Shown here one piece after another: positions 39,571 through 64,000 of a DNA stretch of 64,000 bases. The position numbers were made by a program, and so were the translations under genes. Position 1 is the first letter of the stretch, and each line of letters opens with the position of its first letter. Origin of the DNA: Scolanthus callimorphus (lineage: Eukaryota > Cnidaria > Anthozoa > Actiniaria > Edwardsiidae); assembly GCA_033964015.1 (NCBI GenBank), contig CM066924.1, positions 10,079,077 to 10,143,076 on the forward strand, given 5' to 3'. The notes below the pieces were generated by a model that saw only the letters and a list, made by a program, of their open reading frames with translations, did not search any database and was not told the origin of the DNA.

Positions 39571-39571
39571 T

Positions 39572-43510: not shown

Positions 43511-43570
43511 TAGATCTATAAAGAGTAGGAGACGATCCAGGATCACTTCATTTGTGTACAACCATTCTCC

Positions 43571-44249
43571 ATGGCAAGAACTCGAGGTGGTGCTAATGCA
43601 GGACAACGTGCTTTAGCTGCGTGGGATCAAAGACTTGGTTTAGCAACAACGCCTGCTGGTCGTGGTCGTGCACGTCTTCCAGCAAGTACACGAGCCAATC
43701 GAGGACGTGGAACTGTTAGCGTTGTTGGTGGAACACCACGACCCCAACGCCCCATTGGAAGAAAATCACCACCTGCAAGTTATCGTTCCCCAACGTTAAC
43801 ACCTGCTGCTCGTGCTGCCTTATCTGCTTTAAGTGGTAGCAGAAGCAGTAGCAGCGGTGGTAGCAACCAAAGGAGTAGTACTCCAAGTTCAACAAGTCCT
43901 TTAGTTGGCCCTCGATTCCAACGATTGATGGTTGCTATAAGTCAAGATGCTCGACGTACCACAGCTGCTGCTGCTAAAAGAAGACAAAATGCTATTGCTG
44001 CCATTTCCACTCCACCACCTCTAATCTCTCCAATTGGTACTTCAAGACGAAGTGGTTGTTCTGCTAGCAGTGCTAGAAGAAGTCTTTTTAGTACTACTCC
44101 AAGTCCAGCTGCTGCTGCTTCTGGTGGTAGACGAAGTAGCGGAAGTAGTAGACGAAGTAGTGGTAGACGAAGTAGTGGAACTAGTAGACGAAGTGGTGGA
44201 AGCAGTAGACAAAGTAGTGGAAGCAGTAGACGAAGTAGTGGAAGCAGTA
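43571..44249 (+). pseudogene. Ser/Arg-rich core-like gene, split by the inner Polinton
   Basis: Open from ATG 43571 and about as well preserved as the inner copy, with tandem RRSSG-type repeats towards its end. The inner Polinton enters at 44250, so translation would run only two codons past the target site to TAG at 44252. Matching downstream sequence (AGACGACGTGGTGGTGCCAG) resumes at 63959, in the same frame. Confidence 0.9.
44244..44249 (+). repeat. Target-site duplication, left copy (GCAGTA)
   Basis: Six bases directly before the inner Polinton terminus, repeated at 63953-63958. Polintons make 6-bp duplications. Confidence 0.95.
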
Positions 44250-44507
44250 AGTAGTATATAGAGTGGATATACGCCCCACATTTATACGCCCCACTTTATA
44301 CGCCCCACTTTATACGCCCCACATTTATACGCCCCACATTTATACGCCCCACTTTATACGCCCCACTTTATACGCCCCACTTTATACGCCCCACATTATA
44401 CGCCCCACATTATACGCCCCACTTTATACGCCCCACATTTATACGCCCACTTTATACGCCCCACATGTCATCTATAAAAGCTGGTGTGTGAGCGATGTGA
44501 GGTATTC
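44250..44507 (+). repeat. Left terminal inverted repeat
   Basis: Terminus, then 14 units of TACGCCCCACATTTA/TACGCCCCACTTTA (about 44270-44465), then CATCTATAAAAGCTGG and GTGTGTGAGCGATGTGAGGT, identical to the right end in reverse. Identity stops at 44507, just before the GRF-like gene. Confidence 0.95.
44471..44480 (+). promoter_or_regulatory. TATA box in left TIR
   Basis: TCTATAAAAG about 50 bp before the ATG at 44530. The same box in the right TIR faces the orphan gene at 62014-63744, and a copy survives in the outer element near 29180. Confidence 0.75.
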
Positions 44508-44529
44508 AGTTGGCAGAGGTTGTAGAGTA

Positions 44530-44877
44530 ATGAAGTGTTTTTGTGATTACGAAGCAAAGCAAGTAGGAGACGTGTACAAGTGTGGTTGTCCTTTGGATTA
44601 TTCAAAGAAGGTGATTGGTTGTCATTTTTACTTTACGGCATCGGACGCTAAAGCTGTACGAGAAGCTATTCCTGAAGGCACATCGCTGAGTGTGTTTCCA
44701 ACGTGTGACCACGACTTGATTTGTCGCGTTGGTGTCGGGAAAAGAGACTGGAACGAAGGTCGTGTGTATTTTGCTTGTGACGTCCGTGCTCCAAATCCCA
44801 AGTGTGATTCGTTTCTTTGGGCTGAAGAACCCAAGAAGAAGCGCCAGAAAGTATGGAACCCGATGCAAAAAAGTTAG
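44530..44877 (+). CDS. GRF-like zinc-finger protein (115 aa)
   Basis: A small protein starting MKCFCDYEAKQVG. I chose this ATG because it follows the TIR TATA box and avoids an upstream GTG frame through the array. The N-terminal part has a C-x-C ... C-x-C cluster (residues 3, 5, 18, 20) and C31. The C-terminal part has C59, C65, NEGRVYFAC (75-83), C92 and FLWAEE, which resembles the GRF zinc finger ('G-R-x-F/Y-x-x-C ... C-x-x-F-x-W'). GRF domains bind single-stranded nucleic acid in repair and topoisomerase proteins, so a DNA-binding early role is plausible. It ends in a basic KKKRQK tail and overlaps the next gene by 25 bp. A dead copy is at 29238. Confidence 0.75.
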   Translation: MKCFCDYEAKQVGDVYKCGCPLDYSKKVIGCHFYFTASDAKAVREAIPEGTSLSVFPTCDHDLICRVGVGKRDWNEGRVYFACDVRAPNPKCDSFLWAEEPKKKRQKVWNPMQKS

Positions 44878-45323
44878 ATGATGATGATCAAGCGGATATG
44901 GATGTGTTGGATTCTTATTCGATCATGGAACTGTTGGACGAGTTTGTAGTATCCATGATATGGGAAGGAATGCATCGTAAAAGGAATGTGGACTGTGAAG
45001 GATGTAAAGTGGACCATCCCAGTCAGAATCGTCATCAGTGTTTGAGGTTGAACGGGGACGATCTATGGCCAGAGTATTACAATGTGGTTCGTGATATGTT
45101 TCGCAATTCCATGGAGAAGGTCTGGGAAGGAGTGCAAAAGTTGTCGGCTGGCATTAAAGTAACGATTCAAGAAAATTGGCGTCGCTACATCGAAGGTGAA
45201 TTGGAATTCCTTGGCGAAATGAAAGCAAAGGACCTGTTTAGCGAGTTGTTTTCTCCTCACACTACTGCTATTGCGAAAGCAGCCGAGGAGACATGTATTG
45301 AAGTGTTTAATAAGGACGATTAA
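44853..45323 (+). CDS. CxxC-HPSQ protein (156 aa)
   Basis: No named family. The ATG at 44853 overlaps the previous gene; MDVLDSYSIMELL at 44898 is an alternative start. A predicted zinc site is formed by C48, C51, H55, H61 and C63 within EGCKVDHPSQNRHQCL. The C-terminal half is helical (VWEGVQKLSAGIKVTIQENW, then RRYIEGELEFLGEMKAK). Similar 'C-x-x-C-x4-H-P-S-Q' proteins occur, as I recall, beside other invertebrate Polinton-like sequences; their function is unknown. A polyadenylation signal AATAAA follows at about 45370, converging on the minus-strand genes. The split dead copy (29591 and 33768) keeps the same helix. Confidence 0.7.
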   Translation: MEPDAKKLDDDDQADMDVLDSYSIMELLDEFVVSMIWEGMHRKRNVDCEGCKVDHPSQNRHQCLRLNGDDLWPEYYNVVRDMFRNSMEKVWEGVQKLSAGIKVTIQENWRRYIEGELEFLGEMKAKDLFSELFSPHTTAIAKAAEETCIEVFNKDD

Positions 45324-45604
45324 GAACATTTGAACATTTTATTAAGTATAAGTTGTAATACAAAGGAGTATTAATAAAAAAGTGTTCTTCTCAAATGGTG
45401 TTGTTTTTTTATCGACGTAATAGGCGATTAAACATAGTAGAGAGTCGTTCATGTCGATGGCGACGACGACGAGGAGGATAATCATAATTCATGAATAATG
45501 CTTGAGATGCAGGTATGGTGAATACAATGTCAAAAGTAATGATTCCACTGTCATCAATGTCAAAAGCAATCGCTCCATTATCTATAAAAGAAATAAAAAA
45601 AAGT

Positions 45605-46057
45605 TTACATAGGTACAATTCTGATACCCCATTTGGTCATTGGCTCTGCCTCTGTATAGATAGTCCCATGTCGTAGACGTCGACTTGTCACGGGTATTAT
45701 GACATCAGTCACTTTATAATAATGTCGTTGATATTGTCCATCATTACGGTGTACACGAAAGGAGATGGTGTTATCGCCATAGATTAAAATTCCATCGTCA
45801 CGAAATCTTTCCCTCAGTATACTAGAGGAAAATGTATACCATACACTTCTTTTTCCTATGCGTAGCAGATTTAAAAGATACGGGCAGCTTCTCATTTGTG
45901 AAGGAATAAAATTGAAGAGTTCATCAAGATCATTATTTGATCGATCATCCAGTATAAATGGTGGAGGTTCATCATCATCATCATCATCATCCGTAGGAAT
46001 ATAATCAGTAGTATCATCATCCGTAGCATTCCTACCTACGGAGAAAACAGAGTTCAT
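45605..46057 (-). CDS. Paralogue of the RING-protein C-terminal domain (150 aa)
   Basis: It lacks the RING but matches the rest of the 242-residue gene upstream: an acidic GRNATDD linker, then LDELFNFIPSQMRSCPYLLN, a W(Y/A)xFSSxxL helix, RFRDDGILIYGD and a closing YYKVTDVIIPV...GTIYTEAEP strand-rich part. The two look like a tandem duplication in which one copy lost its RING. Its ATG overlaps the stop of the upstream gene as TGATG. The shared C-terminal domain is not one I recognise. Confidence 0.75.
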   Translation of the reverse strand: MNSVFSVGRNATDDDTTDYIPTDDDDDDDEPPPFILDDRSNNDLDELFNFIPSQMRSCPYLLNLLRIGKRSVWYTFSSSILRERFRDDGILIYGDNTISFRVHRNDGQYQRHYYKVTDVIIPVTSRRLRHGTIYTEAEPMTKWGIRIVPM

Positions 46058-46785
46058 CAGATGGCATCATATGTGATTAACCATTCGGATTCTGGTAGTA
46101 CATCTATATAGAGGACAGTCCCTTCTGGACATGCAGTTACCACTGGGATTTTGACATGAGTCACTTTTAAAAAATTTCGTGGCCATCGTCTACCATCGAG
46201 GTATACAGGTAACGAGATGCCGTATTTGTCGTGGTATATTTCAACTCCATCCACACGAAATCCCTCCTCACGAAATCTATTCAACAGTTCCCCAGCTGAA
46301 AATTGTGCCCACAATCCTCTTGTTCCCATTTGTAGCAGTCCGGTTAGATAGGAGCTGGTTCTCAATTCTTCACGAGATAAACCGAATAGGTCATAGCTAC
46401 GTCTTCGATGAATATCATCAAGTAAAAATTGTGTAGGTTCGATAGGTTCGAATGAAGGCATGGAGGAATGGATTGGAACGGCGGAGGGGTGCTCGTCATC
46501 ATCCTCATCATCTGTAGCATTCCTACCTTCGAACGGCGACGAGGGTGGTGATGGTGGTTGCGTTGGTGGATCTCCTCTTCGGCGCTGTACACGTCTACAA
46601 TGAGGGCATGTGGTTTCATGTTGCTGTCGTTGATGCCATTGTGTCAAGCATCGTAGATGACATTGCTTATGACAGCATTCCATAACTTCGAGTTTGTTGT
46701 CGCCATCTTTTTCTTCTTCTCCTTGTTTTGCTAAACAAATAACACAACAAAGTTCTGAAGCTTCTTCTTCCTTGTTGTCACTCAT
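46057..46785 (-). CDS. RING-type zinc-finger protein (242 aa)
   Basis: The start is the ATG at 46785 (MSDNKEEEAS); the frame extends 9 nt upstream to a GTG. RING: C14-x2-C17, an acidic insert, C37/C38, C42, H43, C46, then C60-x2-C63 (TCPHCRR), with the LxQW turn typical of E3 ligases although the inner spacing is unusual. After a proline/acidic linker comes a domain repeated in the next gene. Viral RING proteins commonly redirect host ubiquitination; that role here is inference. It is transcribed away from PolB from a shared divergent promoter; the TATA (GTATATAAAG on the minus strand) is at about 46842-46850. Confidence 0.8.
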   Translation of the reverse strand: MSDNKEEEASELCCVICLAKQGEEEKDGDNKLEVMECCHKQCHLRCLTQWHQRQQHETTCPHCRRVQRRRGDPPTQPPSPPSSPFEGRNATDDEDDDEHPSAVPIHSSMPSFEPIEPTQFLLDDIHRRRSYDLFGLSREELRTSSYLTGLLQMGTRGLWAQFSAGELLNRFREEGFRVDGVEIYHDKYGISLPVYLDGRRWPRNFLKVTHVKIPVVTACPEGTVLYIDVLPESEWLITYDAI

Positions 46786-47297
46786 GATCTTCACGTCTCG
46801 ACGTCAGCTCCAGAACTGAACTGAATTCGTCAAATTTCTCCTTTATATACTTTTTTGGATGATGTCATCGGATCGAAATCCACCAATCAGAAGGCTAGAA
46901 TTTGGATTTCAACCAATCAGATGGCGTGCTTAACGCACCAATCAAATTACAGGGATTTCGAGTTCCAAAGGTCAGGGTCCAAAGTCCAAAGGTCAATTTA
47001 TCAGCGGATCGAAATCCACCAATCACATTTGAGTATTTTGATGCGGACGTCCGAGGAAACAGGATCAAGGTCATCGAAGGTCATCAGAGTCCAAAGGTCA
47101 ATTTACAAGCGGATCGAAATCCACCAATCAGAAGGCTAGAATCTGGATTTCAGCCAATCAGAATGCGTCCTTAACGCACCAATCAAATTACAGGGATTTC
47201 GATCCGATGACGTCATCCCACTATTATAAAAGGCGTGAGCTCAGTTTGAGATCACAGTCGTCCTCTGCTCGTCGTGATAGGAAGAAGAAGAAGAAAG
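46786..47297. promoter_or_regulatory. Divergent promoter between RING and PolB genes
   Basis: TATA boxes face both ways (about 46842-46850 minus, 47225-47231 plus). Inside them are palindromic TGATGTCA (46861) and TGACGTCA (47208-47215) sites of CREB/ATF type. Between lie two long direct units (about 46867-46960 and 47111-47205) that each carry GGATCGAAATCCACCAATCA, CAACCAATCAGA-like and CGCACCAATCAAATTACAGG, giving several CCAAT boxes. A third partial unit sits at about 47000-47035. No gene. Confidence 0.75.
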
Positions 47298-48447
47298 ATG
47301 TCGGGAACAAGTGAAGAGGATGATGTAGAAGATGCACTTCGAATATTTAAGAAAATGCTAGAAGAAGAAGAAGAAGAAGAAGTAATGGCGGCGAGAGAAG
47401 AACAACAACAAGAAACATCTCTGGGGGATTTGTTAGAAGGAGAACAGAGAGAATTGTATGATTTAATCGAGGAACTACAACCTACGTGGATGGAACAATT
47501 TGAGTTGGGAGAATTCATTGATCAATCACAGCCACCACCACCACCACCACCACCGTCACCAGAGCTTCCTACTAATGAGTTCCTCGATTGGATTCTACAA
47601 GACGATGGTGACGTCGATATGACACAAAGTGTCGAAGAGCTCTTTGAGCGGCATTTGAATGACCAACCACCACAGCCGTCGTCACCACAACCGTCGTCAC
47701 CACAAGTGGAAGTAGTAGAGGAAGGATTTGTTGATGATTTTATCGCGTGGATGATGCAAGACGATGCTGATATGACAAAAAGTTTTGAAGAGCTATATCA
47801 ACAGTATTCGGATATGACGGCTCATAGACCACAAACACCAGGGCCACCACCACCACCGTCACCACCCCAAGATGTTGACAATCAACCACTGCCATCACCA
47901 CCACCGCTACCATCACAGCCAATACCGTCACCACCACTACCACAGCCGTCACCACAAGATGTTGACAATCAAATTGGAAGAGGTGTCAAGCGTACCCATG
48001 ATGAGCAAGAGGAGGAGGAGGAAGAGAATGATGGTATTTCGTACCAATTGAATGAAGTCCACAGTCGGCATTCGCGTAAGATGAAAACCGATTGTTCTGA
48101 TTATGATTTAAACATCAATCTTCCTTTACGGTCAACTGTCCAAGAGGCCATGCAAGATGTAGAGCGTGTTCTTGACAGTGTGCTAGAAGAAACGCTCAAA
48201 GGTGTACCTAACAAGGACTTTGCTCGCGTGACCTTGAATGCTCCAGCTCTGAAGAATCCCATATCGTTACCGTTTATGCTACGGGAACAGTTGACACCGC
48301 AAAGGATTATGGGACAGATTGAAACCATTGTGCAATCTAACGAGGAATTTGTTATCAATGGACAGTTTCAGTTGCACGTGATACGAGCACGTACACCCCG
48401 TGGTGGTCATGGTGGATATGATGATGATGATGATACTACTGATGACG

Positions 48448-48479
<32 letters not shown>

Positions 48480-51400
48480 GACGACGATGTCCCAGCGGGT
48501 GAGAAGAAGAAAAAGCACTCTAAGAAGAATAAGAGGACCTTGGATTGTGCGGATGCGGAGACATGGGCAAAGATGAAGAGATCTATAGTTCGAGTACGTA
48601 ATCAGGATAATCTTTGTGCTGCACGTGCGATCGCGATTGGAATCGCCTTCCATACCGGAACAAAACAGGAGTATAAGAATATGTATAAACAGCGGTCAGG
48701 AAACAGAGATAATGGTCCACAACGTAAAAAAGCGAAAGAGTTGCACCAACAAGCTGGCGTCCCTGAAGGAGCGTGTGGTATTGAAGAACTGAAAAAGTTC
48801 CAAGCGTATTTGGCTCCACAAGGGTTTAAGCTCTACCTCGTGTCCAGAGAACATATGTATGGTATTATTTGGCAAGGTGCTTTGGAGGAGGAGCCTAAAT
48901 ATCATTTGTACTTGTGCCTTGAAGGAACCCATTACCATTTCATCACTAAAATGAAAGGTCTCCTGGGAAAAAGCTACTTCTGTATCAAATGTAACAAGGG
49001 CCACTCAGATCAAGGCAAGCACAAATGCAATATCCTATGTAGTGCTTGTGGTGAAAAGAACTGTTCTCCTCAGAGTGTCGATGATGATGGTGCCAAACGA
49101 TGGAACTGGCAACATTGTACCAACTGTAACCGTTACTTCCGCACCCAACAATGTTTTGACAACCATCGTCGCGTGAAAAAGCATGGTCCCGCGAATAATC
49201 GGAAGGAATGGTCGCAGTGTCAGAAGATACACAAGTGTGAAGAATGTCTTACGAGGTTTGATGTCTTAGACAAGAAGCGGCAAGGCAAGCCTCACAAGTG
49301 TGGTGAATACGTGTGTCACGTCTGCAAAAAGATGGTCGACAAGGATCACTTATGTTATGTTCCCGTAGGAGCAGCAGCAGCAGTGACCGGACGGAAGAAG
49401 AAGAACGAGGAGGAGGAGGAGGAGGATCAATTGCGACTCATCATCTTTGATTTTGAGGCTCAACCCCTGGGTACGCAACATCGGGTCAATTTTGTGGGTG
49501 TGCAGAAACTGTGTGAGGACTGTCGTGATCTACCCTTAGACTCACATCCTACTTGTGACACGTGCGGATTGCGTAAACGTGGTTTCCAAGGGGAACAAGC
49601 TCTGGACGAGTTTTGTCAATGGTTGTTTGGTGGAAGCAATGCAGGATACACGTGTTTGGCACACAACTTTAAAGGGTACGATTCCTATCCTATCTTGGAG
49701 TACTTGTTCAAGAATGCATTAAGGCCTACTGTTATTTTTAATGGAGGAAAGATAATGATGCTTGGACTCCCCGATCTCAAGATCAGTATGAAGTGCACGT
49801 TGAATTATCTCCAGATGGCATTGCGTCAACTTCCCAAAGCTATGGGATTTGATCAAGAGGTGCGCAAAGGCGACTTTCCACATTTCTTCAACACCCCAGA
49901 GAACCAAACGTACGTGGGACCTATGCCTGATCTCAAGTATTATGGCATTGAAAACATGATGAAGAAAGATGCTGATGCGTTACGCACGTGGTACGAGAAC
50001 GAAGTCGCACGTGGTGCCGTGTTCAATTTCCAAGAAGAACTTGCGTCTTATTGTCATCAAGACGTTGAAGTGCTGAAGAAAGCTGTTTTGGCCTTTGACA
50101 AGCTTACCATGGCAACGGGTGACGTCCATCCGTTTCACACGTCGGTCACCATTGCATCGTTGTGCAGTCTTATTTTGCGCACCAAATTTCTCAAGGCCAA
50201 CACCGTTGCTGTGATTCCTGCTCAAGGATACCGTGGACGCGACGTGCACTCGCTCAAAGCATTGCAGTGGCTCGAGTACAGGCACATCACTGATGGAGTG
50301 CACATTCGTCACGCTGGCACGAGCGAAGGGGAATTCAAGGTGGGGCGATACAAGGTCGACGGGTATGCCGAGAGTACTCATACCGTGTACCAATACCATG
50401 GATGTCTCTATCACGGATGTCCCAAGTGCTACACGAAGGACACGAGGAATCCTTTCTCTGGCACTACTATGGGTGATCTCTACCATGACACGTGCAACGT
50501 ACGCACCTTTATTACTCGGGCTGGTTACCACCTCGTGGAAGTGTGGGAATGTGAGTTTGATCGTGAACTGACAGCAACTTCTAGGATACAAGCGATGGTC
50601 GGTGACGTGGAGAAGTGCAAGCCCTTGGAACCCCGGGACAGTTTCTTTGGTGGACGTACCAATGCGATCCGTTTACGATGCGAAGCCAAGGATGACGAGC
50701 AACTCCACTATTACGATTTCACGTCGTTGTATCCGTACGTGAATGTCACATGTGAGTACCCTGTGGGACATCCAGAAGTTCTGGTGAACGATGAGATCCA
50801 ACAAGACCTGCATCTGTATCGCGGATTGATGAAAGTACGTGTCCTTCCACCCAAGGATGTTTACTTCCCAGTGCTTCCCGTACGCATCAACGGAAAGCTG
50901 ATGTTTCCCTTGTGTTACACCTGTGCTCAAGAAGAGAACCAAGATCATCCATGCACGCACACTGAGGAAGAACGCGCTTTTACCGGCACATGGACGCACG
51001 TGGAACTGTTCAAAGCTCTGGAGAAAGGGTATAAAGTGATGAAAGTGTATGAGGTGTGGCACTGGGCTCAATGGGAACGCTTGTTCGAAGAGTACATCAA
51101 GACGTTTCTCAAGTACAAGCAAGAAGCTTCAGGATGGCCAAGTTGGTGCGAGACGGAAGAAGACAAGGTCCGGTACGTGGAACAGTACGAAGAACATCAA
51201 GGCATTCGATTGGATCGTGAACGTATCGAGAAGAATCCAGGTCTCCGCTCTGTCGCCAAAATGTTCCTGAATTGCATGTGGGGAAAATTTGGCGAGCAAT
51301 CGAATCGGAGACGTACCGAGTACGTGGAAAGTCCAGAAAAGTACTTCGAGCTGATGACAGACGACAGCATCGAAGTGAGTGATGTGTTGATCGTGAATGA

Positions 51401-51965
51401 CGATACGGTGCAGATTCACTACAAGATGGCTGAGAAGTTTCTGAAGACGAAAGCACACACCAACGTTGTCTTTGCTGCTTACACCACAGCGTATGCGCGT
51501 CTCAAGTTGTATGACGTCATGGATGGTTTGGGGGATCGATGTTTGTACCACGATACAGACAGTGTCATCTTTACGTGGCGTCCTGGTCAATGGAAACCAC
51601 CACTTGGCGATTACTTGGGAGAACTGACCAGCGAACTCGATCCAGAAGAACACATCGTGCACTATGTGGCCACAGGACCCAAGAGTTATGGGTACAAGAC
51701 CAACTTAGGGAAGACCGTGTGCAAAGTCAAAGGACTACGCATGAATCTACGTACCACAGAAACAGTGAATTTGGATAGCATGGTGGAACTGTTGGAAGGA
51801 CATGGGAACCCTGTGCGTCAAGTGACCAACCCCCACACCATTCGACGCAATGTGACGACCCGTACGTTGCATACCGTATCAGAAACCAAGTCCTTCAAGG
51901 TCGTGTACAACAAACGTGTACGACGTGGCATGTACACTTACCCTTATGGGTATTATGGACTTTGA
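47298..51965 (+). CDS. POLB: Protein-primed family B DNA polymerase with long zinc-rich N-terminus (1555 aa)
   Basis: I start at ATG 47298 (MSGTSEEDD), about 70 bp past the TATA; the open frame begins 24 nt earlier at a GTG. Order: an acidic and proline-rich region (1-240) with a duplicated W-x-x-Q-D-D-x-D-M-T motif; a poly-Asp/Lys tract (about 370-415); an OTU-like segment (DNLCAARA about 436, HYHFIT about 544); zinc-finger modules (about 560-700); 3'-5' exonuclease with Exo I IIFDFEAQ (714), Exo II HNFKGYDS (788) and Exo III YCHQDVEV (917); polymerase motif A YYDFTSLYPYV (1137), B KMFLNCMWGKFG (1321), C YHDTDS (1416) and K-x-Y KSYGYK (1461). All catalytic residues are present. It replicates the linear element using a terminal-protein primer. 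Polyadenylation signal near 52060. Confidence 0.95.
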
Positions 51966-52255
51966 ACTTTTGTTAAGCTTCGTGTACAACAAACGTGTAC
52001 CCTTATGGATATGGACTTTAACACTTTTGATAAGCAGTGTATATATAAAGTTATGTATAATAAAGAACATATAAAACCCAAATAGTGTGATTTTTGTCTA
52101 TAAAGGGGGATGACCCAGCATTGGACTAATCATTTGGTGTTGAACACCGCCAAGGATGGTATGTTTTAAAGACCGTCCCATACTAACGTGCCGTAACTTA
52201 TTGAAACGTATACGTTGTATGCTAGCGTGTTGTGGTGGGCGTATTGTGGTAGTCG
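51966..52255 (+). promoter_or_regulatory. PolB terminator region and integrase promoter
   Basis: Contains AATAAAG at about 52060 for PolB and TATA-like sequences at 52030 (TATATATAAAG) and 52098 (CTATAAAGG) ahead of the integrase ATG. The first 60 bp partly repeat the last PolB codons (CGTGTACAACAAACGTGTAC). Confidence 0.6.
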
Positions 52256-53386: not shown

Positions 53387-53416
53387 TATACCATCAAAGA
53401 CCTCAGTTGCCTCAGG

Positions 53417-54358: not shown

Positions 54359-54375
54359 AAGAAGAAGAAGAAGAT

Positions 54376-54795: not shown

Positions 54796-54802
54796 AAACA
54801 GT

Positions 54803-54809
54803 TATAAAA
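54803..54809 (+). promoter_or_regulatory. TATA box upstream of MCP
   Basis: GTTATAAAAGAC begins 7 bp after the stop of the basic protein and lies about 75 bp before the MCP ATG at 54882. It is conserved in the outer copy near 39985. Confidence 0.7.
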
Positions 54810-54881
54810 GACTTGGACATTCATGCCTTCTAATCAGTTGGACATTACCTCAACTACTGTCAAGAGCTCCTCATCGTCAAC

Positions 54882-56192: not shown

Positions 56193-56725
56193 ACACGGAT
56201 CAGTTAGAACTGCTCGTACACAACGATCCCAAGTTAAATCCAGTGTTTGGTGGCGTGTTTCCATCTGATTTGCTACCGACCAAAGTCCCATTTCCCAATC
56301 AAGCCTACATCATGAACGTGGATCCAAGCGATCGTCCAGGATCTCATTGGTTAGCCGTGTACTTTACACCCGAGACGTGTGAATTCTGGGACAGTTTTGG
56401 ATTTCCTCCACAAGTGTATGGTCAAGCGATTACGAACTTTTGCAAGTTACGTCCACACCTCGTGCACAACACTCGTAGGATTCAAGCCATGGACTCTGAC
56501 GTATGTGGACAACATTGTTTGTTCTTCTTGTGGAACCGTGTACGTGGCAAACGTCATGGAACAGTAGCTGCTATGTTTACGCCAAATTTACAATGGAACG
56601 ATCAGAATGTTCGCACCTTTGTGCGTGATCGATTTTTACAACGACGACAAGTACCTTGTAATCCTAAGCGTAGTCGTCAATGCGCTCTTGTTCAGCGCTC
56701 TTTGTTACACATGTTAAAGTTATAA
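56189..56725 (+). CDS. PRO: Adenain-like maturation cysteine protease (178 aa)
   Basis: Cleaves capsid and core precursors during virion maturation. The Ulp1/adenain active site is visible: H53 (GSHWLAVYF), D68 (EFWDSFG), Q99 (oxyanion) and C106 within DSDVCGQHCLFFL. The Q-to-C spacing of seven and the His-to-acid spacing of about 15 fit adenain. The C-terminus is basic (RRQVPCNPKRSRQCALVQRS). The ATG lies inside the MCP stop (ATGA overlap), suggesting coupled translation or a separate transcript. Polyadenylation-like AATAAAA follows at 56724. The outer copy has lost the acidic catalytic residue. Confidence 0.92.
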   Translation: MNTDQLELLVHNDPKLNPVFGGVFPSDLLPTKVPFPNQAYIMNVDPSDRPGSHWLAVYFTPETCEFWDSFGFPPQVYGQAITNFCKLRPHLVHNTRRIQAMDSDVCGQHCLFFLWNRVRGKRHGTVAAMFTPNLQWNDQNVRTFVRDRFLQRRQVPCNPKRSRQCALVQRSLLHMLKL

Positions 56726-56819
56726 TAAAAATGATGTTTCATCACCAAATGTTGTTGTTGTTGGGTATATAGTAAGGTGTAGATGTAGGCTACGGTTCAT
56801 ATGGAATCTAGACGTCAGC

Positions 56820-57464
56820 ATGGACGATCGTCGTTTTCGTTGTCCATGCAGCATTTTGGTGGTGGGCCCAAGTCAATCGGGTAAAACCACGTTTACACAC
56901 CAATTGCTTCAACAAGTCGCTCTTGCGTTCAACAAACAATTTCGAAAAATTGTGTATTGTTATGGCGAATGGCAACCGTTGTTTACGTCTATTCAACGGG
57001 ACCTGGGTGTGACCTTCCATCAAGGACTCCCAGACAACGTCACCGACTTGTTTGGTCCTCACGATACTCCAGGCCTCTTGGTGATGGACGATTTAATGGA
57101 TCAAATGGATCGTGTGGTACGCGTGTTTACACAGGAATCCCATCATCACAACATCACCACGTTGTTTTTAACACAGAACTTGTTTCCACCCAATAAGCAC
57201 GCACGTACCATTTCACTCAACACGCATTACATCGTGTTGTTCAAGAATCCAAGAGATCGTTTAGGCGTACAGATGTTAGCCCAACAAGCGTTTCCTGGAC
57301 GTGTTCCTTACGTGATGGATGCCTTTCATCAAGCCACCGAAGAACCTCATGGTTACCTCATGTTGGATTTTCATCCAATGACACCAGAACAATGTCGTTT
57401 ACGATCTCATATTCTTCCTAAAGAGTTTCCCATGTACGTCTACACTGAAGGAAAAGATCTATAA
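56820..57464 (+). CDS. ATP: Genome-packaging ATPase, FtsK/HerA type (214 aa)
   Basis: Pumps DNA into the capsid. Walker A is GPSQSGKT (16-23), Walker B GLLVMDD (85-91), and the sensor strand is TTLFLTQNLF (about 118-126), followed by HYIVLFKNPRDR, the usual order in A32-like viral packaging ATPases. TATATAG-like sequence at 56765 precedes it and the stop codon sits inside the next gene's TATA box. The outer copy lacks part of Walker A. Confidence 0.93.
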   Translation: MDDRRFRCPCSILVVGPSQSGKTTFTHQLLQQVALAFNKQFRKIVYCYGEWQPLFTSIQRDLGVTFHQGLPDNVTDLFGPHDTPGLLVMDDLMDQMDRVVRVFTQESHHHNITTLFLTQNLFPPNKHARTISLNTHYIVLFKNPRDRLGVQMLAQQAFPGRVPYVMDAFHQATEEPHGYLMLDFHPMTPEQCRLRSHILPKEFPMYVYTEGKDL

Positions 57465-57467
57465 AAA
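57460..57467 (+). promoter_or_regulatory. TATA box overlapping the ATPase stop
   Basis: TATAAAAA includes the TAA stop (57462-57464) of the ATPase gene and lies about 50 bp before the ATG at 57514. The outer copy has TCTATAAAGAG at the same place. Confidence 0.7.
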
Positions 57468-57513
57468 GAAGGAGACGATCCATATCCACGTCATTTGGAT
57501 ACAACCATTCACC

Positions 57514-58356
57514 ATGGCAAGAGTTCGAGGTGGTGCTAATGCACGACAACGTGCTTTAGCTGCATGGGATGAAAGACTTTTAGCAACGCCTGCTGGTCGT
57601 GGTCGTGCACGTCCTACAGCAAGTGCACGAGCCAATCGAGGACGTGGAACTGTTAGTGTTGTTGGTGGAACACCACGAGGCCAACGCCCCATTGGAAGAA
57701 AATCACCACCTGCAAGCTATCGTTCTCCAACGTTATCACCTGCTGCCTTATCTGCTTTGAGTGGTAGCAGCGGTAGCAGCCGGAGAAGTAGTAGTACTCC
57801 AAATTCAGCAAGTCCCTTAGCTGGTTCTCGATTCCAACGATTGATGAATGCTGTAACCCGAGATGCTCAACGTGCCACTGCTGCTGCTGCTAAACGAAGA
57901 CAAAATGCTATTGATGCCATATCCACTCCACCACCTCTCATCTCACCAATTGGTAGTACTCCAAGACGAAGTGGTAGTGCTGCTAGCAGTCGTGGTAGAA
58001 GACGCCTCTTTAGTACTACTCCAAGTCCAGCTGCTTCTGGTGGAAGAAGTGGAAGTAGTAGACGAAGTAGTGGAACAAGTAGACGAAGTGGTGGTAGTAG
58101 TAGACGCAGTGGTGGCAGTAGTAGACGTGGAAGCACAAGTAGCGGAAGACGACGTGGTGCCGCTGGTGGTGGTGGTGGTGGTGGTAGTAGTAGTAGTGGG
58201 GGTAGCAGCACTCCTCGTGGACGACCCGGAAGAGGAAGACGACCACGACCACGAGGACCAACAAGAACCGTTACAGATACGAAAACCGTGACTACCACTT
58301 ACAGGGATGGTCGTCCACCTTCCGTGGTACGTGTTTCACGTCGTCGTAGTTCATAA
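57514..58356 (+). CDS. Ser/Arg-rich core-like protein (280 aa)
   Basis: Highly basic and low in complexity: ARVRGGANARQRALAAWDER at the start, a GRKSPPASYRSPTLSP stretch, ATAAAAKRRQNAIDAISTPP, then tandem SSRRSSG/SSRRSGG repeats (about 180-215), a GGGGGGGSSSS run and an RGRRPRPRGPTRTVTDTKTV end. Composition and late-gene position suggest a DNA-condensing core protein, comparable in role to protamine or adenovirus core proteins. Repeats vary in number between copies. Two other frames across the repeats are open but are shadows. The outer copy of this gene is the one the inner Polinton invaded. Confidence 0.75.
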   Translation: MARVRGGANARQRALAAWDERLLATPAGRGRARPTASARANRGRGTVSVVGGTPRGQRPIGRKSPPASYRSPTLSPAALSALSGSSGSSRRSSSTPNSASPLAGSRFQRLMNAVTRDAQRATAAAAKRRQNAIDAISTPPPLISPIGSTPRRSGSAASSRGRRRLFSTTPSPAASGGRSGSSRRSSGTSRRSGGSSRRSGGSSRRGSTSSGRRRGAAGGGGGGGSSSSGGSSTPRGRPGRGRRPRPRGPTRTVTDTKTVTTTYRDGRPPSVVRVSRRRSS

Positions 58357-58392
58357 ATACCCGTGTCATATGTGGAACATCATCAGTTCATC

Positions 58393-58743
58393 ATGTCACA
58401 GCGACTGAGAAGGAACGCAGATTTTCTCCGGCTCTTGCATCGTACCAGAGGGAAAACACGACAACGACTCATTGCTAATGCTACTCCTGAACAAATCAAC
58501 ACGTTGAGTGAAGTAGCGATGAACCTGTTGCGTGGCAACGTACCGTTGTCGTCAGCACGGATACAACAACTGAAACGCTACAAGCAACAGTTACGCAAGT
58601 TGGCCAATCGGAAAGTCTCCAGCAAAAGCCGGAAAGCCATGTTGGTGCGTCAACGAGGAGGATTTTTATTACCTGCTCTTCTTGGTGGAATAGCAACGAC
58701 GTTTGTACCGAAAGTCCTGAACAGGCTCATCTCTAAAATATAA
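58393..58743 (+). CDS. Small basic late protein with RGGFLLPALLGG segment (116 aa)
   Basis: Start at ATG 58393 (MSQRLRRNADFL), not the GTG 30 nt upstream. A long basic helix (QQLKRYKQQLRKLANRKVSS) precedes MLVRQRGGFLLPALLGGIAT and a hydrophobic C-terminus. An 'R-Q-R-G-G-F-L' turn followed by a hydrophobic stretch is, as I recall, common in small late genes of Polintons and adintoviruses; a membrane-active or capsid-internal role is inference. The stop lies in the next TATA box. Confidence 0.7.
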   Translation: MSQRLRRNADFLRLLHRTRGKTRQRLIANATPEQINTLSEVAMNLLRGNVPLSSARIQQLKRYKQQLRKLANRKVSSKSRKAMLVRQRGGFLLPALLGGIATTFVPKVLNRLISKI

Positions 58744-58745
58744 AG
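58739..58745 (+). promoter_or_regulatory. TATA box overlapping a stop codon
   Basis: TATAAAG overlaps the TAA (58741-58743) of the preceding gene and lies about 50 bp before the ATG at 58792. Confidence 0.65.
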
Positions 58746-58791
58746 TGTTGTTAAACAAGACTTTTACATCAGTTGCTTTCAAGACGTCATC

Positions 58792-59247
58792 ATGTCAACA
58801 ACAGCAAAAGGTGGTGGAGCTCATCGCATGGCTATGGTTCCTGATTATTTAGTAAACATGCTGCGTACCAAGCAAAAAGTGGAAACGGCACCCCAATACC
58901 GTGTACTGGCACGACTCGATGGAGAAATGCAAGCCATCTTGAATGACACTTCACTTCCTCCTGATGTCAAAGTACGACGTTACGATCAGATTTTACAACG
59001 TTATAATCGGCTGGCAAGACAAGTAAAAGACACTAAACCATTGTCTTTAAAAAGAGTCCAACAACAACAAGATGATGACATTGAAGAAGCAGGGGAATTG
59101 GTTTTACCATCCCCTCCTACCAAGACACCTGCTACTCCAAAAACAAAGCGTTTACCAACACCACCATCCGGGACACCACGAAGACGTTCCGTTAGTGTAC
59201 CAAGAAGAAAGCCTCGACCCTCCGAGAATGGCAACCGTTTTAACTAA
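58792..59247 (+). CDS. Conserved Polinton late protein with LDGEMQAIL motif (151 aa)
   Basis: RVLARLDGEMQAILND and VKVRRYDQILQRYNRLARQ form a helical pair seen in many Polinton late proteins ('L-D-x-E-M ... I-L ... K-x-x-x-Y-x-x-I/V-L-Q-R-Y'). The second half is a proline/serine/arginine-rich tail (TPPSGTPRRRSVSVPRRKPR). Function unknown. Last gene of the + strand late block; polyadenylation signals follow near 59370. Confidence 0.7.
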   Translation: MSTTAKGGGAHRMAMVPDYLVNMLRTKQKVETAPQYRVLARLDGEMQAILNDTSLPPDVKVRRYDQILQRYNRLARQVKDTKPLSLKRVQQQQDDDIEEAGELVLPSPPTKTPATPKTKRLPTPPSGTPRRRSVSVPRRKPRPSENGNRFN

Positions 59248-59389
59248 AAAAGAGACAATGTTATGCTCTCAATAACTTTTATTATTAATTTCATTGGTTA
59301 CAAGAAGAAGAAGAAGAAGAAGACAAAGACGAAGTTTATATAACAGTTAACTTAAATGTCCTTGTATTATTATTAATAAAAAAGAGTTC
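59248..59389. terminator. Convergent 3' ends
   Basis: Polyadenylation signals for both strands lie here: TTTATTATT (AATAATAAA on the minus strand) at about 59278 and AATAAAAAAGAG at about 59375. A (GAA)n tract separates them. Confidence 0.65.
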
Positions 59390-60025
59390 TTACACCTTGT
59401 ATCGTGTTTGCTTGAGCCACTTCCAGAATACGGCCACTTCTACACGTGGGCAATGATAGGCTGTACCCACGGCGGATAGTACGTGAAAACCACAACTTAC
59501 AGCAGACATATCAAACAAAAAGTTCATATCATCATCTTGATCATATTGCTTGAACAGATCTTCGAACTTGGGGCATCCATAGTCCTCCAAATTAACATTG
59601 GGAATGCTGAGTTTATCCAACAGCCGTTTTTCATGACAACCCCCTTTGTATGCGATTGTTCCATTGGACTTAAGGTCTTTCTTGTACCAGTCTTGTACCA
59701 CTTCCTCAAGATCTGTGTAGGGCAACGAGTGTTTCCACGTGAAGTCAAAGCGCAATCGATGAATCATGTAAGCTTTCTTGGCCCCTGCAAAGTCCTTTGC
59801 GTCTTTTAGTTCTCGAAATTTGATCGGAAACGTAAAGTGCTGGCCCTTGGTAGCCTCGTCTTCAAATATAATTCCGGCCTCCTTACACCAGAATTCTTTC
59901 TGCACGTAATAGCCATCGAAATCAATAATGGCTTTGATGTCCATCAATGTGCCTACGGCACAGTCAAAGCAATGGTGATTCTTCTCGGTGTTCTTCCACC
60001 CTGCTGGGTAAATTGTTGCCATCAT
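59390..60025 (-). CDS. Predicted RNase H-like/nuclease-family orphan (211 aa)
   Basis: Start at MMATIYPAGW (60025); the frame extends into the neighbour's repeat region, where translation gives meaningless QFRxHHLLHS repeats. Motifs: AIIDFDGYYVQKEFWCKEAG near the N-terminus, TIAYKGGCHEKRLLDKL, NVNLEDYGCPKFEDLFKQ, and a C-terminal CGFHVL ... YHCPRVEVAVFWKWL. The order 'D-x-D-G, K-E, Y-K-G-x-x-x-K, N-L-x-x-x-G-C-P, C-x-x-H ... H-C-P' matches, from memory, a widespread uncharacterised invertebrate family often next to mobile elements. An RNase H-like fold is a guess from the acidic start and terminal His/Cys. It overlaps the upstream gene by 62 bp in another frame. Confidence 0.65.
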   Translation of the reverse strand: MMATIYPAGWKNTEKNHHCFDCAVGTLMDIKAIIDFDGYYVQKEFWCKEAGIIFEDEATKGQHFTFPIKFRELKDAKDFAGAKKAYMIHRLRFDFTWKHSLPYTDLEEVVQDWYKKDLKSNGTIAYKGGCHEKRLLDKLSIPNVNLEDYGCPKFEDLFKQYDQDDDMNFLFDMSAVSCGFHVLSAVGTAYHCPRVEVAVFWKWLKQTRYKV

Positions 60026-60305
60026 CGTAAATTGTGTGTGAAGCAGGTGATGCTTGCGGAATTGGCTGTGAAGCAGGTGATGCTCGCGGAATTGACTGTG
60101 AAGCAGGTGATGCTTGCGGAATTGGCTGTGAAGCAGGTGATGCTTGCGGAATTGGTTGTGAAGCAGGTGATGCTCGCGGAATTGGCTGTACAGCAGACGC
60201 TGCAATATTATTGAAGAATAGAATTGTAAACCCTAGCCCAATACCTAGAGTTGTCCCAAGTGCTGTCCCGAATGATTTTGCAAGTGACGTTAAGAAACTG
60301 TCCAT
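59964..60305 (-). CDS. Small membrane protein with 10-residue repeats (113 aa)
   Basis: ATG at 60305 (MDSFLTSLAKSF). One predicted transmembrane helix, rich in small residues (FGTALGTTLGIGLGFTILFF), is followed by five or so copies of PIPQASPASQ encoded by 30-bp DNA repeats (about 60044-60195), and a charged tail. The TATA (TATATAAAG on the minus strand, about 60403-60411) and TGACGTCA (60422) lie upstream. The last 62 bp overlap the next gene in a different frame. Function unknown; possibly a virion or host-membrane factor. Confidence 0.65.
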   Translation of the reverse strand: MDSFLTSLAKSFGTALGTTLGIGLGFTILFFNNIAASAVQPIPRASPASQPIPQASPASQPIPQASPASQSIPRASPASQPIPQASPASHTIYDDGNNLPSRVEEHREESPLL

Positions 60306-60981
60306 AAAATATCTCTTCTTCTTCTTCTTCTTCTTCTTCTTCTTCTTGTAACTGACGGTCGAGAGCTTAGCGAAAGTGAAGATGATCGGCTTCAGCGCAC
60401 TCTTTATATACACTTTCTGAATGACGTCATCAAGATACTGTTCTCTGATTGGTGGATCCATGTTTAAAGGGACTCATCTGTTTTCTCGGTGGTAAACCCT
60501 CTATAAAAATATGTGGGTGAGATGGGTGGGTATCTCCCCCTCACACATCCCCTTAATATTTATATTCCTATATACCATTATAGACATGGATCAACAATAT
60601 ATTTCTAAGGGGGAGATGGGTGGGTATCTCCCCCACTCATAATCTTTTTAATTGCGAAACCCTGAACGTAGAATGGATCAACAATCTATTCCTAAGGGGG
60701 GAGATGGGTGGGTATCTCCCCCACTCATAATCTTTTATATTCGTAAAAACCCTAAACATGCATCAACAATCTATTCCTAACGGGGGAGGGGGGTGGGTAT
60801 CTCCCCACATGTTTAATAGGAACTTACCACCGAGAAAACAGATGAGTCCCTTTAAACATGGATCCACCAATCAGAGAACAGTATTTTGATGACGTCATTC
60901 AGAAAGTGTATATAAAGAGCGGTGCGCCATCGATCCCTCGGTTTTTTTTTAGTTTGGCCGTCGAGACCCCAACAACAAACT
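60306..60981. promoter_or_regulatory. Divergent promoter with inverted arms and central G-rich array
   Basis: Arms at about 60397-60495 and 60824-60918 are inverted copies with about one mismatch. Each contains CCAAT (CACCAATCAGAGAACAG), TGACGTCA (60422-60429; 60890-60897) and TATATAAA, all pointing outward. Between them are three to four units of about 87 bp with ATCAACAATCTATTCCTAA and the palindromic GAGATGGGTGGGTATCTCCC. The left arm serves the membrane protein, the right arm the RING protein. Confidence 0.8.
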
Positions 60982-61911
60982 ATGGAGGACAGTGTGATTT
61001 GTGTAATTTGTCAAGAAGAATGGGAAGACCTAATAGAAATTACAGAGTGCTGTAAAGCACCGTGCCATTTTCAATGTTTGAGTCAGTGGCATGCCAGATG
61101 CCCAAGAACCAACCCCAGCTGCCCGTACTGCCGCGGAAAGCAAACCAGGAGGGTGCCTAAAATTGAAGTAGATGATACTGTCGCTGCTTATACTACTGTT
61201 TATGACATAACGGAAGAACAATTACAGATCCTCAGAGCTCAAGTGGATGCACTCCAGGCAGCATTAAATAGACCAATAGATGATGATGCGTCGTATGAAA
61301 CCCCGACGTTAGAAGATCTTATACGCCTACGCAACGATTATGAATTTGTACCCATCGGGGCTAACGACGATTACGCTGCTGCTGCTGCTGCTGATGCTGC
61401 TGATGCTCTTACTACTGCTACTATTGCTGCTGCTGCTGATGATCCCCGCCTAATCAACCCCTTCATAGAGCAGGACTCTGATGATGATGATGATGATAAC
61501 GATGACTCAGGATACAACTCTGATGATCCTCGTCCACATACACCTACCATACAGCAGGACTCTGATGATAGTATGATGGAACCCATGTGGGAACTAAATC
61601 AGCCTGTAGCGGGGGACTTTATAGACTATTTAGATAATGATGATGATAATGAAATGGCAGAGGCTAGACTTGAATACATTGAGGAACGTCAGGATAATGA
61701 AGACCCAGATTTTTTACCTTCACAACCAAATGTAAACCCTGGAATAATTTCCATAAGAATATTTAATTCTTTTACACTGTTCTCCATAGTTTGTTGTTGT
61801 TGTTGTTTTAAAAGTTGGAAACAAAGTTGTTGTTACTTTAAACAATGTGTCTTTATTGAACTCTTGCGCACGCAAATACAAAGCATCATAATAAAAGGGG
61901 TAAATAAGTAG
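60982..61911 (+). CDS. RING-type zinc-finger protein, right arm (309 aa)
   Basis: Start at ATG 60982 (MEDSVICVICQEEWEDL), about 70 bp past the TATA; upstream extension of the frame is in the promoter. RING: C7-x2-C10, C23/C24, C28, H29, C32, then C47-x2-C50 (SCPYCRGK), with the same ECCxxxCHxxCLxQWH spacing as the left-arm RING protein, so the two are paralogues at opposite ends of the element. The rest is acidic, with alanine and aspartate runs (DDDDDDNDDSG). It ends in a Cys-rich hydrophobic stretch (SIVCCCCCFKSW) that may be a membrane anchor. Likely an E3 ligase-type host modulator (inference). AATAAAAG at about 61891. Confidence 0.8.
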   Translation: MEDSVICVICQEEWEDLIEITECCKAPCHFQCLSQWHARCPRTNPSCPYCRGKQTRRVPKIEVDDTVAAYTTVYDITEEQLQILRAQVDALQAALNRPIDDDASYETPTLEDLIRLRNDYEFVPIGANDDYAAAAAADAADALTTATIAAAADDPRLINPFIEQDSDDDDDDNDDSGYNSDDPRPHTPTIQQDSDDSMMEPMWELNQPVAGDFIDYLDNDDDNEMAEARLEYIEERQDNEDPDFLPSQPNVNPGIISIRIFNSFTLFSIVCCCCCFKSWKQSCCYFKQCVFIELLRTQIQSIIIKGVNK

Positions 61912-62013
61912 GACTTATATGTCCTCCCCCTTACAACAATAATAATAATAGTCTCTCTCTCATGTTCAGTTTTTTTTTTATCTCGAAGAAGGGGGAGATG
62001 GGTGGGTATCCCC

Positions 62014-63744
62014 TCAAAAGAGTCCATCAATAGGACGTCTTCGAAAGTCCATCCCAACAGGATAGATGTATTTACTCCACTCTCTGTCCACGAGGTGTCC
62101 ATCGTGAGTGTACAAGTTCTTCCAGAAGGTACCATCCCTGCGCATGAGATACGCCTTGCGTGGATCTGTATACTGACTGTCAAACACCTTGCGCGTATCC
62201 ACGATCAGATGCTGGTACTGGGGTGTGGCTGAAAACAGGGTTATACGCAGCGATTGAATGGTATACCCCTTACCCCATCCCCCTGCTACATCATCGTACA
62301 CGTAGACCACTTCCTTCATAGCTTCGCGCAAGTATCGTCCCCAGTTCTCCTTGGTAACTTTACTCCATTCCACTTTCTTTTTGTCGGGCGGTGATGTTGC
62401 AAATCCACCACCACTACCAAAGGATTGAGGTGATGACGGTGTAAACCCATCCACGAAGGTAAAATATGCATTGGCGAAGATCGCACGTGATAACGTAGCA
62501 AGATACACTCTACGATCATCCATTCCCTCGACGTCCTCTTTCTCAGGGTTGGTCAGCGGTATTTTCACCTTTTCCTCCTTCTCCTTCTCTTGTCTTATAC
62601 AGGCCATCTTGAACCATTCCTCCATCTTGACACGAAGCATGTTATGCCCTTGGGTCATCAACGTTGTTAACGTGTCCATACCGGCACGACGAATTGAGCT
62701 GGTATTACGTATAACGCGACAACCCAATCGATGTAACTCTTTCAGCAGGCCTGGTACAATCATGCGTGGAGCTATAGCCTTTTGCAGTTGCTGTAGGAGC
62801 TCCGGTGAGAAGTCATCCCACAAATACACATTTTTGTCATCTCCCTTAAAGTAGGTGAGCCATGAACTCAAGTCTGGATTAGTACCGTGACGTTTCTGGT
62901 ACGCTTCTCTCCATAAGGGCTGCGCCAAATGATCACACAACTCGTAAAAGATCCCTGTCACCAACTGACTCATCACAGTCTCGCCACTCTTCGTCCAACT
63001 CTGATTGTATTTACGCATCTGGTTTTGATGTGACTCTTTCAGTTTAAGACGCTCCCGTATCGCCATCGCTTCGGATGCACTTCCAAGCATGCTTTGAAAC
63101 TGTTCTCCAACTTCAAGGATCTCGTACGTCTTCTCATTTCTATCACCATCAACGTGTTCCACAGTCATACCGCCAAATTCATCCTCGACGTAACACACCG
63201 CTGTCTTGGCCAACTTCACCACTTCTTTCCACAAATCCGCTGCCACAAAAGGAATGTCCTTAATCTCTTCTTCACCTCCTCCTTCTTCCTCCTTCACTTT
63301 TCTCACTCTCTTACAGTACTCTGTCTCAGCTGCTTCACCTTGACGTAGAACCCATCGCGCCACGTAATCCGCTAAACGGAACAGGTACAACGTACGATCC
63401 CCATAATACATCTCTTGAGCATACCATTTCTTTGCTTGACCCATGAACAATGTTTTCTCTTCTTCCACGTTCACTCTCTCCATACGCAGGACCTCAAGCT
63501 TTGACACAACGTTCTTGATGCATCGATGACAAGATAAACCATGAAGACATCCTACCGATACAAAATCGGCAAGAAATACTTCGCCAAGCAAAATCACATA
63601 ATCTTTTGGCTTCAAATGGCTCGTCAACAAGAATGGACATCCAATACGACCATTATAATGTACACAATAGTGCATCAAACTTCGTGTAAAATGCTCCATC
63701 TCCCATTGCAACTTCCATTCTTGCTCAAACTGAGTTCCACGCAT
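62014..63744 (-). CDS. Large orphan protein from the right TIR promoter (576 aa)
   Basis: I take ATG 63744 (MRGTQFEQEWKLQW) as start; the frame extends to a GTG at 63774 inside the TIR. The TATA (TCTATAAAAG on the minus strand, about 63777-63786) lies about 35 bp upstream. The N-terminal third has a possible zinc site (VGCLHGLSCHRCIKNV). The middle is helical and charged, with a poly-Glu insert (EEEGGGEEE). The C-terminal part has DKKKVEWSKVTKENWGRYLR, a VYVYDDVAGGWGKGY stretch and LMRRDGTFWKNLYTHDGHLV. I recognise no family. It is among the longest genes of the element and mirrors the early GRF gene's promoter, so an early replication or host-interaction role is possible. Confidence 0.75.
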   Translation of the reverse strand: MRGTQFEQEWKLQWEMEHFTRSLMHYCVHYNGRIGCPFLLTSHLKPKDYVILLGEVFLADFVSVGCLHGLSCHRCIKNVVSKLEVLRMERVNVEEEKTLFMGQAKKWYAQEMYYGDRTLYLFRLADYVARWVLRQGEAAETEYCKRVRKVKEEEGGGEEEIKDIPFVAADLWKEVVKLAKTAVCYVEDEFGGMTVEHVDGDRNEKTYEILEVGEQFQSMLGSASEAMAIRERLKLKESHQNQMRKYNQSWTKSGETVMSQLVTGIFYELCDHLAQPLWREAYQKRHGTNPDLSSWLTYFKGDDKNVYLWDDFSPELLQQLQKAIAPRMIVPGLLKELHRLGCRVIRNTSSIRRAGMDTLTTLMTQGHNMLRVKMEEWFKMACIRQEKEKEEKVKIPLTNPEKEDVEGMDDRRVYLATLSRAIFANAYFTFVDGFTPSSPQSFGSGGGFATSPPDKKKVEWSKVTKENWGRYLREAMKEVVYVYDDVAGGWGKGYTIQSLRITLFSATPQYQHLIVDTRKVFDSQYTDPRKAYLMRRDGTFWKNLYTHDGHLVDREWSKYIYPVGMDFRRRPIDGLF

Positions 63745-63750
63745 CTTTGC

Positions 63751-63952
63751 GAATACCTCACATCGCTCACACACCAGCTTTTATAGATGAAATGTGGGGC
63801 GTATAAATGTGGGGCGTATAAAGTGGGGCGTATAAATGTGGGGCGTATAAAGTGGGGCGTATAAAGTGGGGCGTATAAAGTGGGGCGTATAAAGTGGGGC
63901 GTATAAAGTGGGGCGTATAAATGTGGGGCGTATATCCACTCTATATACTACT
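63751..63952 (-). repeat. Right terminal inverted repeat
   Basis: Reverse copy of the left TIR: terminus, ten array units (GTGGGGCGTATAAA), TATA box and GTGTGTGAGCGATGTGAGGT. It ends precisely at 63952 and is followed by GCAGTA. Confidence 0.95.
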
Positions 63953-63958
63953 GCAGTA
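63953..63958 (+). repeat. Target-site duplication, right copy (GCAGTA)
   Basis: Identical to 44244-44249 and directly outside the right terminus. Confidence 0.95.
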
Positions 63959-64000
63959 GACGACGTGGTGGTGCCAGTGGTGGTGTAGTAGTGGTGGTAG
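63959..64000 (+). pseudogene. Outer Ser/Arg-rich gene, downstream fragment
   Basis: AGACGACGTGGTGGTGCCAG resembles the inner gene at about 58148-58170, where RRRGAAGGGGG is encoded. It keeps the frame of the fragment ending at 44249. Cut by the window end. Confidence 0.85.

Follow-up and report, generated by a model that had tools for sequence, protein, structure and literature searches.

The locus and its two Polintons

The stretch of Scolanthus callimorphus DNA analysed here (C14:10079077-10143076, 64,000 nucleotides in total and referred to as the window, part of a genome of 597 Mb in 302 contigs) holds two related Polinton transposons, one lying within the other. A full-length inner element occupies positions 44250-63952 of the plus strand and interrupts the serine/arginine-rich (Ser/Arg-rich) gene of a decayed outer element, which starts at position 28945 and has the same orientation. 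The first-pass annotation had proposed an older relative as the landing site of a family member, and this was borne out by three lines of evidence which agree with each other, namely an empty version of the insertion site, the target site duplications (TSDs) of both elements and collinear homology between them.

The inner element (19,703 bp) starts with AGTAGTATATAG, finishes with CTATATACTACT and is flanked by two copies of the TSD GCAGTA (44244-44249 and 63953-63958). Its terminal inverted repeats (TIRs; left, 44250-44507, plus strand; right, 63750-63952, minus strand) open with AGTAGTATATAGAGTGGA, followed by an array of the 14-bp unit TATACGCCCCACTT and then by a TATA-like base, whereby the right TIR possesses fewer array units than the left. 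Searching the window for the tip AGTAGTATRTAKAGTGGA with up to 3 mismatches allowed gave three matches (0.11 expected), all of which are exact and locate to 28945, 44250 and, on the minus strand, 63952.

The gene frames of the inner element, i.e., those for PolB, integrase, capsid protein, protease, ATPase and the Ser/Arg-rich protein, are uninterrupted and all are encoded on the plus strand. The family B DNA polymerase (47298-51965, 1555 residues; PF03175, 8.8e-43) can be assigned to the protein-primed type by family only. It is followed by an rve integrase of 376 residues (52256-53386; PF00665, 4.7e-15, above cut-off) with a C-terminal chromodomain (PF00385, 1.9e-08, residues 336-372). The capsid protein (MCP) gene (54882-56192) encodes a protein with a predicted double-jelly-roll-like fold. 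Its sequence gave no match in Pfam, nor in the PDB by profile search, and fold comparison alone yielded matches: the AlphaFold model (pLDDT 84) has the Sputnik capsid as its top PDB fold match (E 4.1e-17, TM 0.66/0.58), with the mavirus and PBCV-1 capsids also among the matches. Two weak matches lie downstream, an adenain-like (C5) protease (56189-56725; PF00770 at 19.7 bits, below the cut-off of 21.3), for which comparison with the PDB returned viral proteases including adenain at E 0.003-0.005, and an A32-like packaging ATPase (56820-57464; Pox_A32 at 19.4 bits, below the cut-off of 22.8). The intact Ser/Arg-rich gene (57514-58356, 280 residues) is the counterpart of the interrupted outer gene, and the scoring of 8000 candidates gave no homologue of its product at E <= 0.001. 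A PHROGs search with three inner-element proteins returned no match, and among viral contigs searched with the MCP protein 11 stretches fitted a pattern, none of which encoded a relative.

The outer Polinton spans 28945 to 74485 on the plus strand in extended coordinates, i.e., the window numbering carried on past 64000 into fetched flanking DNA (C14:10108021-10153561), so that its right end is located 10.5 kb past the window. If the inner element is indeed nested, the outer element is expected to continue after 63958 and to end in tip and CATGAG, its left TSD copy (28939-28944). This prediction was run on the DNA past the window, where the outer element was found to resume after 63958 and to close with an inverted tip and CATGAG (74486-74491, extended). 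In detail, its right half consists of the remainder of the Ser/Arg gene to about 64226, outer sequence from 69390 to 74267 and a tip with 1 mismatch ending at 74485. The left part (28945-44249, plus strand) opens with the left TIR (28945-29208), in which the conserved tip precedes irregularly arrayed units of the GATTGAGTACAGCAACCACGTGGT type, in part with a period of 28 bp. By blastn, the left two thirds of the inner element align collinearly, with gaps, to 29176-44225 of the outer copy. Over six pieces, 620 substitutions were counted in 7045 aligned positions, and the repeat identity amounts to about 79-87%.

The outer copy is decayed: its frames are broken in the INT, ORF313, MCP, PRO and ATPase genes, and about 3 kb of PolB/integrase are absent. 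In addition, three transposon-like insertions were identified in its window part, the first at 29832-33766 (inverted ends CACCGATCCC/GGGATCGGTG, TSD AATT), the second at 35620-37581 (inverted ends GGCCATGTGCACGATG, TSD GTA) and the third within the MCP gene at 41056-42023 (inverted ends CACCTATTTCAATTAA with 1 mismatch, TSD TA).

Some further features were observed at the locus. Within the inner element, a GRF zinc-ribbon-like protein and two RING-finger-like proteins locate to 44530-44877, 46057-46785 and 60982-61911, all under the Pfam cut-offs. Directly following the Ser/Arg gene, 5.2 kb which show no homology to the inner element (64227-69389, extended) take the place of part of the outer element, and this is seen in both copies of the locus described below. 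A match to DNA polymerase phi was found in the window frame 9374-9862.

The interrupted gene and its empty counterpart

The upstream part of the outer Ser/Arg-rich gene (43571-44249, plus strand) matches the intact gene of the inner element up to nucleotide 635, and the 47-nt right flank (63954-64000) matches it from nucleotide 633 onwards. The alignment score of the right flank is 50, a value reached by none of 1000 shuffles (shuffle maximum, 29). The downstream part of the gene (63959-64000 in the window, plus strand) continues in homology to about 64226. About 9 codons past the insertion site the outer gene, in frame until then, is shifted by 2 nt relative to the inner gene. The earlier claim of a gene split at 44249/63959 with only GCAGTA duplicated and the same frame resuming therefore holds for the exact junctions and the abutting flanks, but as to the frame for these 9 or so codons only.

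A second copy of the outer locus lies further downstream on this contig, at a distance of 123 kb (C14:10230806-10256604), and shares both the CATGAG and the mutated right tip. In this copy the inner element is absent and GCAGTA occurs once (C14:10246146-10246151): C14:10246151 is the counterpart of window position 44249 and C14:10246146 that of extended position 63953, the flanks overlapping by the six bases GCAGTA. Past the site the empty copy shows identical letters including the 2-nt shift, and hence, with the inner gene as reference, the Ser/Arg gene had already been broken before the insertion took place. The two locus copies differ by 45 substitutions over 41,513 aligned positions (0.11%), a value which considers, for each chunk of 2.5 kb, the best match reaching 98% identity or more and excludes less alike, repeat- or indel-rich stretches. 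As an observation in its own right, the whole locus is present twice on the same contig (window 1-64000 versus C14:10203123-10266805), as a recent duplication, be it real or of haplotypes, and the doubled region covers window position 1 to about 84.7 kb (extended coordinates) or more.

The order of events can be derived from these comparisons. Whichever origin the second copy has, and barring precise loss, the inner insertion is younger than the split of the two locus copies. The TIR arms of the outer element differ at 14 of 235 aligned positions and those of the inner element at 1 of about 202 (raw alignment, 3/204, two of these lying at the end past the TIR), and judged by these arms the outer insertion is far older than the inner one. 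Of the earlier statement that the locus dates the two elements, the order thus stood, but the comparison provides no clock and no absolute dates.

Considering all this, the structure almost certainly goes back to a full-length Polinton from a recently expanded family, whose own integrase, of the retroviral type, inserted it into a sibling that was old and decayed. The sequence shows that the outer insertion was first and that it then decayed through frameshifts, a deletion and the three further insertions in its window part. It also shows the locus in two copies, by duplication or as two haplotypes, with the inner element in one of them and the 6 bp GCAGTA duplicated around it. The integrase is assumed to join the ends by retroviral strand-transfer chemistry, a chance hit may have placed the target in the Ser/Arg gene, and guidance to silenced chromatin rich in transposons may come from the chromodomain.

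Several points weigh against this explanation. Both locus copies rest on one assembly, in which the second may represent either a segmental duplication or a haplotype placed beside the other. Some repeat-rich stretches of the two copies are 93-97% alike. The TIR arms of the inner element are unlike in array copy number and in one base, and this 1 in about 202 exceeds the 0.11% found between the locus copies, albeit as a small count. Finally, the AG centre of the window site GCAGTA is a purine-purine (RR) step and not the step which the family prefers, as described below.

An assembly artefact, in which two separate Polintons were wrongly joined, is conceivable insofar as the identity between the two elements, together with the existence of closer siblings, makes a collapse possible and the second copy could be an unremoved haplotype. 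It is nevertheless considered extremely unlikely: both elements possess matching TSDs and TIR tips, the occupied and the empty site were both assembled, and the nine stretches checked are free of N. Recombination or gene conversion between siblings could likewise draw on the sequence which the two copies have in common, but neither exact ends with a 6-bp duplication nor a single GCAGTA in the empty copy are expected from it, which renders its probability practically negligible. The locus constitutes a clean natural experiment, in which one site is available both occupied and empty and two generations of a virus-like lineage stand in fixed order.

Target-site choice

Searched across the genome with at most 1 mismatch allowed, the tip yielded 100 matches, as compared to 7 for the reversed-pattern control. 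Seventy of these tips were combined to 35 TIR pairs whose TSDs had to be alike with at most 1 mismatch, and in all 35 the TSD proved to be an exact 6-bp duplication. The remaining 30 tips were excluded from the TSD statistics and one pair was dropped as a duplicate of the outer locus, leaving 34 distinct sites from which the preference of a Polinton integrase for its targets can be read.

The central TSD step at these sites is pyrimidine-purine (YR) in 22 cases (8.1 expected), RR in 8 and pyrimidine-pyrimidine (YY) in 4, and the purine-pyrimidine (RY) step does not occur. None of 5000 sets of random positions reached a YR count of 22, and without the two window elements 21 of 32 sites have a YR centre. 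Among the 30 leftover tips, five facing pairs within 200 kb were found, four of which have an exact TSD when one extra AGT is accepted at one end and one of which lacks a matching TSD. The four extra-AGT pairs represent three distinct sites (TSDs GACATC, GGCATG and AACATT), all with a YR centre, which brings the count to 25 of 37. As a side observation, these pairs (C14:12327694, C14:7918578, C12:23722250 and C26:469961) would fit an (AGT)2 terminus able to acquire one more repeat. The signal is clear: the integrase sites favour a pyrimidine-purine centre, are without purine-pyrimidine and in this resemble the retroviral rule. Retroviruses are reported to favour flexible YR and/or to avoid rigid RY steps at the site centre, and for retroviruses with a 6-bp TSD a weaker need for central flexibility was inferred (PMC4422553). 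The present family, with 22 of 34 YR and no RY, would seem to differ from the latter.

The AGCAGTAG-rich, AGCAGT-type repeats of the Ser/Arg gene had also been put forward as favoured targets, for which a comparison of other insertions of the family was proposed. A preference of the integrase for such repeats would be consistent with the 4 GCAGTA found in the 679 nt of the upstream outer gene part, as compared to 32 in the 64-kb window with the two strands taken together (21.4 expected), and with 5 of 34 TSDs lying within 2 mismatches of GCAGTA/TACTGC (2.2 expected). A mild excess was moreover seen in the 26-bp contexts of the 34 sites, the window site included, for AGCAGT (2, 0.3 expected), GCAGTA (2, 0.24), GCAGT (4, 1.2) and AGTAG (4, 0.95). 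However, these excesses are small, concern few sites and do not suffice for the claim: the AGCAGT contexts fall to 1 of 33 without the window site, and within 1 mismatch of GCAGTA/TACTGC there is 1 TSD of 34 (0.26 expected), namely the window's own, or 1 of 37 with the three added sites. Compared with the sequence lying outside each of the 100 tips (389-1500 bp of flank, unmasked), the Ser/Arg protein gave a match at the present locus only. Preferred targeting of these repeats is consequently regarded as very improbable.

Nesting frequency and self-targeting

The outside flanks of all 100 tips (389-700 bp, for some tips up to 1500 bp) were scanned for nesting with the proteins and DNA pieces of the inner element. 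A Polinton within a Polinton was identified at 2 of the 34 distinct sites, i.e., the window locus and C6:16913360-16929079. This second element (TSD TTCGTC) has entered another Polinton, where it separates the protease gene from the ATPase gene and sits shortly upstream of the latter, whose frame is open over the stretch read. An integrase at C6:16908100 is 57% identical and is probably that of the target Polinton, which would mark it as a member of another family.

Two nested cases raise the question of self-targeting, in which the chromodomain would guide integration into resident, silenced Polintons above chance. In its favour, the integrase does bear a chromodomain, and about 0.1 nested sites are expected if 109 copies, a lower bound, with a length of about 18.5 kb each are reckoned with (P about 0.006). 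Against this, the expectation would rise to about 1.5 if all 1374 first-look integrase candidates were Polintons, 109 of which were scored. Furthermore, the C6 target belongs to a different family and has an open ATPase frame, so that silencing is unsupported there, and the flanks covered amount to 389-1500 bp. As the expectation spans from near 0.1 to near 1.5, self-targeting is neither shown nor excluded by these counts, and we regard it as a doubtful though serious idea. The family itself offers a test of homing to its own remains.

Four copies with exact TSDs measure 36-58 kb and are thereby about two to three times as long as usual (C4:27113017-27171452, C2:38271560-38314183, C11:10743850-10786256 and C32:280675-316906). 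All four may hold nested elements.

Relation to known systems

Likeness to Polintons/Mavericks is given by PolB, the rve integrase, the predicted double-jelly-roll-like capsid fold, the (AGT)2 termini and the 6-bp TSD, features known here from sequence. Maverick end motif and TSD are described as in the present family (PMC8097293). The C-terminal chromodomain of the integrase is a likeness to the adintovirus type, for which an integrase with chromodomain is mentioned in a further report (PMC11071296). The closest named relatives were found in Nematostella (56% for the MCP, 68% for the integrase), with corals further down the lists, which points to a probable cnidarian host. Cnidarian MCPs were placed outside the main Maverick-Polinton cluster (PMC10120064).

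Nested transposition is already known, and the present locus is an unusually well-resolved case. Described cases are Ngaro elements in EMALEs (PMC8547959) and retroelements in polinton-like viruses (PMC12220804, PMC12747079), and the likeness to the present locus is that one mobile element interrupts another and thereby marks their relative age. In these described cases, the intruders in EMALEs and polinton-like viruses are retrotransposons, whereas here a Polinton resides in a Polinton of its own family, with the empty site preserved. A search of open-licence papers brought up no account of one Polinton nested in another, which does not prove that none has been published.

Family burst and subterminal arrays

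The integrase census, for which 109 of the 1374 candidates were scored, gave at least 112 matches, a lower bound. Of these, 61 span residues 1-376 at 97% identity or more, the inner copy included, and 8 of the 61 hold a stop; some of the 61 are duplicates of one locus. So many near-identical integrases point to a recent burst, with the outer copy belonging to an earlier wave. The initial proposal of repeated invasion by one lineage is therefore corroborated by the many family copies and by the distinction of burst and earlier wave.

Unlike in Polintons/Mavericks, the subterminal short-repeat arrays of the present family vary strongly between copies. The 18-bp tip and the integrase are nearly invariant, yet 37 different 16-mers, some of them near-variants, directly follow the tip among the 100 tips. 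At C10:19711173, C102:92802, C144:15692 and C7:23775426 the integrase is 100% identical to that of the inner element at the printed precision and yet the arrays differ, as they likewise do between the outer and the inner copy. Within a copy, the left and right ends are alike: ungapped, 57-60 of the first 60 bp are identical in 29 of the 35 pairs (60/60 in 19 of the 35), with 47-51 identical in the remaining 6.

Array turnover thus seems to be faster than protein change, and a regulatory role of the arrays beside the TATA-like base is a guess. Going further, arrays might be swapped wholesale between copies, being alike at both ends of most of them, while tip and TATA-like base stay fixed. They would then serve as swappable regulatory cassettes, for example for escape from silencing aimed at older copies, and, together with chromodomain guidance, would allow young copies to colonise dead, silenced siblings as safe sites. 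This scenario is a speculation which we consider improbable.

Several derivatives of the family ends were observed in addition. In 11 of the 35 element pairs, and in the outer TIR 28945-29208, the E-box-like palindrome ACCACGTGGT lies among the first 60 bp. At C7:10021877-10022092 a 216-bp element which has both tips and is flanked by an exact 6-bp TSD, GATGTC, represents a TIR-only derivative resembling a miniature inverted-repeat transposable element (MITE). A palindrome with 3.15-kb arms (99.4% alike) is located at C127:251200-258700, where both arms are Polinton right ends and no tip was found within 3 mismatches. Finally, C1:23001400-23011390 and 23051900-23061800 hold a tandem array whose units measure about 1.9 kb, resemble each other to 98-99% and contain Polinton right-end sequence. 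Matches at this spacing, among those listed, extend from about 22.99 to 23.05 Mb, and the array is seemingly a satellite derived from a transposon.

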